Assembly: GCA_903953055.1 (NCBI GenBank)
Contig: CAJBIA010000129.1
Location: 1-64,000 of the forward strand
Direction: 5' to 3'
DNA length: 64,000 nt
Source of the DNA: an uncultured Methylophilaceae bacterium
Lineage (GTDB): Bacteria > Pseudomonadota > Gammaproteobacteria > Burkholderiales > Methylophilaceae
The first letter of the stretch is position 1, and each line of letters starts with the position of its first letter. The notes beneath the pieces are model-generated. The model was not told the origin of the DNA, searched no databases, and saw nothing but the letters and a program-made list of their open reading frames with translations. Of the stretch, positions 32,593 to 36,793 are shown piece by piece. The translations under genes and the position numbers were made by a program.

Positions 32593-34251
<1,659 letters not shown>

Positions 34252-34288: not shown

Positions 34289-34309
34289 AAGCCCCGCAAG
34301 GGGCTTTTT
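34289..34309 (+). terminator. Rho-independent terminator of groESL
   Basis: AAGCCCC-GCAA-GGGGCTTTTTA. Confidence 0.88.
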
Positions 34310-34326: not shown

Positions 34327-34359
34327 AAAAAAAACCCCAACTAAGCTTCTTAGTTGGGG
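34327..34359 (-). terminator. Strong minus-strand Rho-independent terminator
   Basis: Minus strand CCCCAACTAAG-AAG-CTTAGTTGGGG followed by TTTTTTTT; no T-tract in the plus orientation. Confidence 0.88.
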
Positions 34360-34445
34360 CAAAATGCCTAAATAGGCTCCACGCTAAGGGAGGGAAGCGT
34401 GGGACATTGACTTGATAGTTCATTGAACGCTCAACATCTCTGTCG
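34327..34445 (-). ncRNA. Candidate intergenic sRNA (~118 nt) with anti-SD-like hairpin loop
   Basis: ECF-like promoter GGAACT-N17-GTCAGA (34481-34453), hairpin CCACGCT-TCCCTCCCTT-AGCGTGG (34402-34379), second small hairpin at 34376-34365, strong terminator, no convincing ORF. Confidence 0.6.
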
Positions 34446-34452
34446 TGCTAAT

Positions 34453-34481
34453 TCTGACTAATAGCTCCTTACTATAGTTCC
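34453..34481 (-). promoter_or_regulatory. ECF/sigmaE-like promoter for the candidate sRNA
   Basis: Minus strand GGAACT - 17 nt - GTCAGA. Confidence 0.45.
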
Positions 34482-34585
34482 AAAATATTTAACATAAAAG
34501 TAAATTCCCAATTTCTAGCCGCACATAAGCATTTAATCTCACTTAAACTGTTCTCGAAGCAACGGTGACCTGCGATAATCTCCTC

Positions 34586-36793
34586 ATGACAACATCAAAC
34601 CAACCTCAAAACTTACTCCTTAATGGACTCAACAACAAGCAGTTAGAAGCGGTCACGTTACCTCACCAATCTGCGCTGATTTTAGCTGGTGCAGGTAGCG
34701 GTAAAACGCGTGTGCTTACCACCCGGATTGCTTGGCTTATTCAAACTGGGCAAATTTCACCGACTGGGCTATTAGCGGTAACGTTTACCAATAAAGCAGC
34801 TAAAGAAATGCTAACGCGGCTTACCGCGATGTTACCAATTAACACGCGAGGCATGTGGGTTGGAACTTTCCATGGCCTTTGCAATCGATTATTGAGAGCC
34901 CATCACCGTGAAGCTTTGTTGCCTAGCACTTTCCAGATTTTGGATACTGCCGACCAACTTTCTGCCATCAAAAGATTGATGAAAGTAATGAATGTTGATG
35001 ACGAAAAATTCCCACCAAAACAAGTGATGGGTTACATCAACAGCTGTAAAGAAGAAGGTTTACGAGCCCACAGCGTAGATGCTTACGACCCACATTCACA
35101 GAGAATGCGTGAGATTTTTGAAGAGTATGACAAGCAATGCCAACGCGAAGGCGTTGTAGATTTTGCAGAGTTGTTATTGCGCTGCTTCGAGCTTTTAAGC
35201 CGCGATAATAACATTCGGAAGCATTACCAAGACCGATTTAAATATATCCTGGTCGATGAGTTTCAAGACACCAATAAGTTGCAATACATGTGGCTTAAGC
35301 TTTTTGCAAGAGTGAACGAAGGTGATCCTAATAATTGCATTTTTGCGGTGGGTGATGATGACCAATCGATCTACGCATTCCGCGGCGCACGCGTGGGCAA
35401 TATGCGTGATTTTGAAGTGGATTTTAAAGTACAAAATATCGTCAAACTAGAAGAGAACTACCGTTCTCATAGCAACATTTTGGATGCCGCGAATGCAATA
35501 ATAAGCAACAACAAAAACCGCTTAGGCAAAAATTTATGGACGTCGGCTGGAAAGGGAGAGCCTGTAAGGCTTTACCAAGCCTATAACGACATAGACGAAG
35601 CCAGCTTTATTGTTGATGAAGTAAAAATGCTACACAACGAGGGCTGGGGACTAAATGATATCGCCCTACTCTACCGCTCTAACGCCCAATCTCGCGTAAT
35701 TGAACATGCTTTATTTTCAAATAATATTCCGTATCGTGTTTATGGCGGTCTTCGCTTCTTTGAACGCGCCGAAATCAAACATGCGATGGCATATTTACGT
35801 CTGATAAATAACCCAGAAGATGACATCGCTTTATTGCGTGTAATTAATTTTCCTACCCGCGGGATCGGTGCCAGAAGCTTGGAGCAACTTCAAGAGTCAG
35901 CCCGAGCGCAGGACTGCAGCTTATGGCAAGCAGCTATCAACAATGTCGGTAATGGTCGCCCAGGTAAAGGATTAGAAGGATTCGTGGCATTAATTAAACA
36001 AATGCAAAACGATGCCAACGGCTTAACACTGACAGAAATGACTGAAATTGCAACTACGATGTCTGGTCTTAAGAACTATTATCAGCTAGAAAAAGAAGGC
36101 GAAGATCGTATTGCCAATTTAGACGAACTGATTAATGCCGCTGTTAGTTTTATGAATAACAACAGCGACGCACTAGAAGATAATAGTAATGGCCTCACTG
36201 AATTCTTAACCCATGCCAGCCTTGAAGCTGGTGAACATCAAGCAGATGTTGGTACCGATGCCCTTCAGCTAATGACAGTACACGCGGCTAAAGGTCTGGA
36301 ATTCAAGGCCGTATTTATAAGCGGTCTTGAAGAGGGCTTGTGCCCTCACGAAAACAGCTTATACGAGAATAACGGCTTGGAAGAGGAGCGCCGTTTGATG
36401 TATGTAGCAGTAACACGCGCTAGACAACGACTATACCTAAGTCACGCGCAAAGCCGTATGTTGCATGGTCAAATCCGATACGGAATTGCATCACGTTTTT
36501 TAGATGAAATTCCTGACGAGCTATTGAAACGCCTAAACAGCCGCCAGGCTCAAAAGCCAATGATGTCAACCAGTTATGAAATCAACTACCAGAATTTGTC
36601 ATCTACAATTAGCAGTGAGCAAAAGTCTGCCATGCCCTGGAAAATAGGCCAGGCTGTATCACATGCCAAATTTGGGCAGGGAGTAGTAGTAAGTTACGAA
36701 GGAAATGCAAGTGATATGCGAATCCAAATCAACTTTGGACGCGAAGGTTTAAAATGGCTTGCGATGGAATATGCCAAGCTAGAAAAGGTCTAA
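34586..36793 (+). CDS. uvrD: UvrD/Rep family DNA helicase II
   Basis: LILAGAGSGKTRVLTTRIAWLI; VGDDDQSIYAFRGA; LMTVHAAKGLEFKAVFISGLEEGLCPH; ATG at 34586. Confidence 0.94.
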   Translation: MTTSNQPQNLLLNGLNNKQLEAVTLPHQSALILAGAGSGKTRVLTTRIAWLIQTGQISPTGLLAVTFTNKAAKEMLTRLTAMLPINTRGMWVGTFHGLCNRLLRAHHREALLPSTFQILDTADQLSAIKRLMKVMNVDDEKFPPKQVMGYINSCKEEGLRAHSVDAYDPHSQRMREIFEEYDKQCQREGVVDFAELLLRCFELLSRDNNIRKHYQDRFKYILVDEFQDTNKLQYMWLKLFARVNEGDPNNCIFAVGDDDQSIYAFRGARVGNMRDFEVDFKVQNIVKLEENYRSHSNILDAANAIISNNKNRLGKNLWTSAGKGEPVRLYQAYNDIDEASFIVDEVKMLHNEGWGLNDIALLYRSNAQSRVIEHALFSNNIPYRVYGGLRFFERAEIKHAMAYLRLINNPEDDIALLRVINFPTRGIGARSLEQLQESARAQDCSLWQAAINNVGNGRPGKGLEGFVALIKQMQNDANGLTLTEMTEIATTMSGLKNYYQLEKEGEDRIANLDELINAAVSFMNNNSDALEDNSNGLTEFLTHASLEAGEHQADVGTDALQLMTVHAAKGLEFKAVFISGLEEGLCPHENSLYENNGLEEERRLMYVAVTRARQRLYLSHAQSRMLHGQIRYGIASRFLDEIPDELLKRLNSRQAQKPMMSTSYEINYQNLSSTISSEQKSAMPWKIGQAVSHAKFGQGVVVSYEGNASDMRIQINFGREGLKWLAMEYAKLEKV

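Follow-up and report, generated by a model that had tools for sequence, protein, structure and literature searches.

A predicted small RNA of the anti-hemB family (RF02837), diverged and relocated to the groEL–uvrD gap of a Methylophilaceae genome, as a candidate RpoE-dependent repressor

Does the gap between groEL and uvrD in the window (the whole stretch of DNA analysed, 64,000 nucleotides) hold a separate leftward gene, and what would its RNA do? A first-pass annotation had proposed a stress-inducible small RNA (sRNA) here with an anti-Shine–Dalgarno (SD) loop. All of the elements that it named are found on the minus strand of 34327–34481 when the sequence is checked. The features of the locus are as follows.

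32617–34251, plus strand: groEL, neighbour gene, outside the sRNA
34290–34309, plus strand: intrinsic terminator of groEL, separate from the sRNA, sequence AGCCCCGCAAGGGGCTTTTT
34327–34448, minus strand: predicted sRNA of about 120 nt (RF02837 match and fold)
34327–34404, minus strand: match to RF02837 anti-hemB, the 3' 78 nt of the sRNA (52.2 bits, E 2.7e-9)
34403–34444, minus strand: P0, 5' leader hairpin (fold; absent from the Rfam model)
34379–34402, minus strand: P1, hairpin displaying the putative anti-SD loop (fold and pairing count)
34386–34395, minus strand: P1 loop UCCCUCCCUU, family core CCUCCC, complementary to SD-type GGGAGG/AGGGAG
34366–34377, minus strand: P2, small hairpin GCCU[AUUU]AGGC (fold and homolog comparison)
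34327–34360, minus strand: P3, intrinsic terminator with U-tail (fold and homolog comparison)
34453–34458, minus strand: -10 box GTCAGA, spacer 17, conserved in homologs
34476–34481, minus strand: -35 box GGAACT of a sigmaE/ECF-type promoter, conserved in homologs
34565–36793, plus strand: uvrD, divergent neighbour, start at 34565 or 34586

The terminator claimed for groEL is present as a hairpin followed by a T-run, and the plus strand has no T-tract after the sRNA terminator stem, so that the T-tract is indeed limited to the minus orientation. As groEL has its own terminator and uvrD runs the opposite way, the sRNA is predicted to be a separate leftward gene, a proposal supported by the RF02837 match and the fold. 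Its predicted start is about 115 nt from uvrD, with transcription heading away from uvrD, and the predicted transcript does not overlap the groEL coding sequence. The promoter lies directly upstream of the sRNA with no ORF between them. Elsewhere in the window, a tRNA gene on the plus strand is cut off by the window start (1–51).

The exact 5' end of the RNA (34448) was inferred from the position of the promoter. RNAfold places four hairpins, P0, P1, P2 and P3, in the predicted RNA (34448–34327), with a minimum free energy of -46.8 kcal/mol (z -6.1; none of 200 dinucleotide shuffles equally stable). P0 was missing from the first-pass list. The two smaller hairpins on that list are recovered, P1 as CCACGCU[UCCCUCCCUU]AGCGUGG (34402–34379) and P2 at 34377–34366. 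The terminator is present with the 8 T described, which end at 34327; its stem (34360–34334) is 12 bp in the fold and not the 11 bp claimed.

A scan of the whole window against Rfam, the covariance search that had been proposed as a check, identifies RF02837, 'anti-hemB' (Burkholderia RNA 7), at 34404–34327. The match is not truncated (model positions 1–81) and is above the gathering threshold (52.2 versus 49.5 bits); the margin is small because the window copy has diverged, and relatives of the same genus score up to 58.6 bits. The CCUCCC loop on hairpin 1 and the intrinsic terminator of the family are both present, in the same three-hairpin order as in the family, whose B. cenocepacia member is ncS04. 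The window copy differs in having a shorter P2, in lacking CCCCUU in the terminator loop and in lying by uvrD and groEL, not beside hemB and engB; adjacency to hemB is genomic context implied by the family name and is no part of the Rfam model. The window genome has a single copy. By sequence and covariance score, then, the predicted sRNA is no orphan; it is a member of a known, previously described family, in a diverged and relocated form. A literature search on RF02837 found no paper assigning the family a function, and a search on RpoE-dependent sRNAs of Betaproteobacteria found nothing.

Other Rfam families were rejected. The suggested kinship with CcsR/cuckoo RNAs does not hold, as RF00519 (suhB/mmgR), the nearest available model for cuckoo-type RNAs, scores 18.2 bits against a gathering threshold of 41 and aligns to a different part of the RNA, not centred on the anti-SD loop. 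RF02278 (double-hairpin) reaches 16.6 bits against 50 (E 0.70 at the window locus), and the window element is not a member. The NsiR1 and Trp-leader matches are below gathering, with terminator-like similarity only. The MicA, RybB and MicL families have no match in the window.

The six P1 pairs counted from anchored positions are all formed in 83 of 84 homologs, with two-sided (compensatory) changes at each of the six. Swapping the arms between sequences leaves a mean of 46.5 fully paired (maximum 54), and the conservation of pairing is thus far beyond chance. The anchored count was used in place of RNAalifold on the MAFFT alignment, which recovered the terminator only; P1 was missed because its loop varies in length, shifting the stem. 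Across families the loop CCUCCC is near-invariant, with varying loop length, flanks and stems, which bears out the first-pass description of an exposed loop complementary to the SD core. P0 is conserved in position but not in sequence in many homologs, with stems such as AGACGA/UCGUCU, AGAUGGUG/CACCAUCU and AGGUAAC/GUUACCU; its covariation was judged without a formal count, and some loci fold differently there. The terminator loop contains CCCCTT (CCCCUU in the RNA) in 79 of 86 homolog sequences. The window copy lacks it and thus retains a single CU-rich loop, against two in most relatives.

A CU-rich loop may also serve to bind proteins or other RNAs, and one that stays near-invariant across families while its stems vary would suit a binding site for a protein, or a sponge (for instance of Hfq or another sRNA), in place of an SD blocker. 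We regard this as improbable, since none of the hairpin loops in the fold shows a GGA-loop (CsrA-type) motif, and CU-rich sRNAs of the same bacterial class pair with regions around the ribosome-binding site (RBS) (PMC11722255). The reading that we prefer is that P1 presents the loop to SD sequences.

Homologs of RF02837 occur in 80 of 100 relatives, in 127 of 187 Methylophilaceae genomes and across the order; the matches in E. coli, Caulobacter and Deinobacterium, taken as controls, are below the cut-off. The sRNA is almost wholly absent from two small-genome genera of Methylophilaceae (g14 and g16), many members of which keep rpoE. Co-loss of the sRNA and rpoE was not seen among the Methylophilaceae genomes examined, and RpoE retained in these streamlined genomes evidently does not need the sRNA. 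At all Methylophilaceae loci examined the sRNA is divergent from uvrD, often with groEL at the other side, and the loci of Methylovorus mays and Methylophilales LSUCC0135 have the same uvrD arrangement. Most homologs outside the family lie between hemB and engB, upstream of and divergent to hemB (72 loci with both genes opposite the sRNA, 32 with hemB alone); in two other-family loci engB has the orientation of the sRNA.

This positional constancy, at hemB outside the family and at uvrD within it, would be expected if the RNA acted in cis, as an antisense to the hemB 5' region, with the other copies being relics or having taken a new cis role at uvrD or groEL. Several observations make this very unlikely. 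The Methylophilaceae sRNA has kept its stem pairing and loop sequence at a distance from hemB; the predicted transcript heads away from uvrD and spares the groEL coding sequence; and the near-invariant part is a loop, of which cis-antisense pairing has no need. The general function of the family therefore cannot be to act as an antisense to hemB, and a trans-acting loop, which is argued for by structure kept through relocation, fits better. 'Anti-hemB' would then be a label of location and not of mechanism.

Tandem anti-hemB copies about 100–180 nt apart were observed in Nitrosospira briensis (L144, 675–889) and in a second genome (G091:C12, 55859–56125); in the N. briensis pair a sigmaE-type promoter of its own precedes the first copy alone. 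The Betaproteobacterial hemB-sRNA-engB locus is also present in a record titled as a Klebsiella pneumoniae MAG (L170, 2084–2102), a sign that this contig may be mis-binned.

The promoter proposed in the first-pass annotation, GGAACT-N17-GTCAGA, is conserved well beyond the window. Regions of 110 nt upstream of homologs were scanned for a -35 centred on GAAC and a -10 centred on TC, spacers of 15–18 being allowed, and a GAAC(T)-N16/17-TC box is found at 85/85 loci (about 4 expected from shuffles), every matched spacer being 16 or 17. The Methylophilaceae loci (69/69 versus 2.95 expected from mononucleotide shuffles) are related and thus not independent, and the 16 other loci (16/16 versus 1.0 expected, same shuffles) are from different families but are the best-scoring ones. 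When a second, named set from the genome collection was scanned more strictly, 18 of 79 loci passed (0.95 expected, dinucleotide shuffles). The box-negative loci are largely from Burkholderia, Paraburkholderia, Pandoraea and Comamonadaceae, with upstream regions that look sigma70-like by eye. Nine loci, several of them from box-negative groups, were checked and are true RF02837 members. The sigmaE-type promoter of the window copy is accompanied by a gene for RpoE in the genome, scoring above the curated cut-off, which is divergent from and adjoins nadB and has TGAACT-N17-GTCTGT upstream, similar to the sRNA box.

The exact string GGAACT-N17-GTCAGA has a single occurrence in the genome, and the reversed string used as control is no rarer. 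A search for further GGAACT-N16/17-GTC promoters, which the first-pass annotation had recommended, gave none beyond chance in this genome, and no regulon was found this way.

The RNA could also be transcribed with the housekeeping sigma factor or another one in place of RpoE, so that its expression would be constitutive or growth-phase dependent, with its anti-SD action unchanged. The absence of the box in Burkholderia and Comamonadaceae, where upstream regions are sigma70-like, speaks against universal sigmaE-type control. The window also has a TATAGT that overlaps with the -35 region; it is not conserved even within the genus, whereas the GAAC(T)-N16/17-TC box is in all 85 loci. The B. cenocepacia member, ncS04, is the only one known to be expressed as a short RNA and was unchanged in every tested condition (PMC5688073). 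This could be taken to favour another sigma factor; it agrees with a different promoter in Burkholderia and tells nothing about stress in the window organism. We consider expression by another sigma factor rather unlikely for the window copy. The simplest reading of the upstream sequences is that RpoE controls the sRNA in the window's family and many others and was replaced in Burkholderia and Comamonadaceae. The idea of a stress promoter has gained support from this box, and as an RpoE-type sigma factor is what the promoter suggests, envelope stress would be a better first guess for the inducing condition than heat or oxidative stress.

From the computed family membership, covarying structure, invariant loop, conserved promoter and conserved uvrD linkage, we infer transcription, the identity of the sigma factor, a role of Hfq and repression. 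In this model, to which we assign a probability of roughly two in three, the locus encodes a trans-acting sRNA of about 120 nt, induced by RpoE. Transcription would run leftward from GGAACT-N17-GTCAGA and depend on RpoE or a closely related ECF sigma factor. The RNA would be stabilised by P0 and the terminator, with Hfq probably at the U-tail, and P1 would display UCCCUCCCUU for pairing with SD sequences containing GGGAG or GGAGG. Such pairing would block ribosome binding on several mRNAs, giving the envelope-stress response a repressive arm. RBS occlusion is proposed because CU-rich stretches of other Betaproteobacterial sRNAs act at the RBS. The string GGGAGGGA has 12 sites genome-wide (6 in each orientation) and its reversed control has 10, so there is no enrichment.

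MicA, RybB and MicL are sigmaE-dependent repressive sRNAs of enterobacteria, and the proposed logic of an RpoE-driven repressor is shared with them. The window sRNA differs in that pairing would be by an internal loop and not a 5' seed. CcsR/cuckoo RNAs of Alphaproteobacteria have hairpin loops with anti-SD CU-rich motifs, and the logic of the loop may be similar in the window sRNA. The latter is one gene, in a single genome copy, with a promoter and a terminator to itself; there is no tandem array and no DUF1127 (CcaF1-type) gene between promoter and sRNA, whereas the CcsR array follows ccaF1 (DUF1127) under an RpoH promoter (PMC10253847). The double-hairpin or 'toxic' sRNAs of RF02278 (ncS27, bdhR1) likewise have a CU-rich unpaired stretch complementary to the RBS, and most predicted targets of these Burkholderia RNAs overlap the RBS (PMC5688073). 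Bordetella S17, likened here by description, also has such a stretch; in Bordetella pertussis it represses BP2158, and pairing at the RBS region was confirmed by compensatory mutations (PMC11722255).

The relocation, the promoter conserved across families, and the P0 hairpin and CCCCUU loop go beyond the first-pass annotation. Anti-hemB RNAs are widespread across Betaproteobacteria; the cis role that the family name suggests is made unlikely by the relocation in Methylophilaceae. With its conserved sigmaE-type promoter and invariant anti-SD loop, the RNA is a candidate RNA arm of the Betaproteobacterial envelope-stress response, and the promoter seems to have changed in Burkholderia and Comamonadaceae, which would be a natural example of an old sRNA being rewired.

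A feedback loop, in which RpoE transcribes the sRNA and the CUCCCUGA loop pairs with the RBS of rpoE mRNA, is a doubtful extension of this model. The rpoE leaders of sRNA-bearing relatives often have (T/A)CAGGGAG, and in 14 of 30 genomes the leader has a complement of at least 7 nt to the genome's own sRNA loop (3.0 expected by shuffling). Such complements occur at 4.6% of the ORF starts taken as control, some of them from spurious ORFs, and at none of 10 rpoE leaders of sRNA-less streamlined genomes, which are AT-richer. At the upstream start of rpoE the window genome has CUAGGGAGG. By loop-leader duplex energy rpoE ranks 7th of 402 genes sampled from about 397 kb of this genome, window included; starts were assigned automatically, apparently wrongly for some of the genes ranked higher. 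Support for direct feedback on rpoE is weak, and we take it as a possibility and a lead, not as a result. The rpoE gene of Methylophilaceae often has an in-frame N-terminal extension (L102, about 970–1170, genome contig C99; rpoE loci L223–L251) and a conserved TATACT about 50–110 nt before the core start, which could mark a second start or an internal sigma70 promoter.
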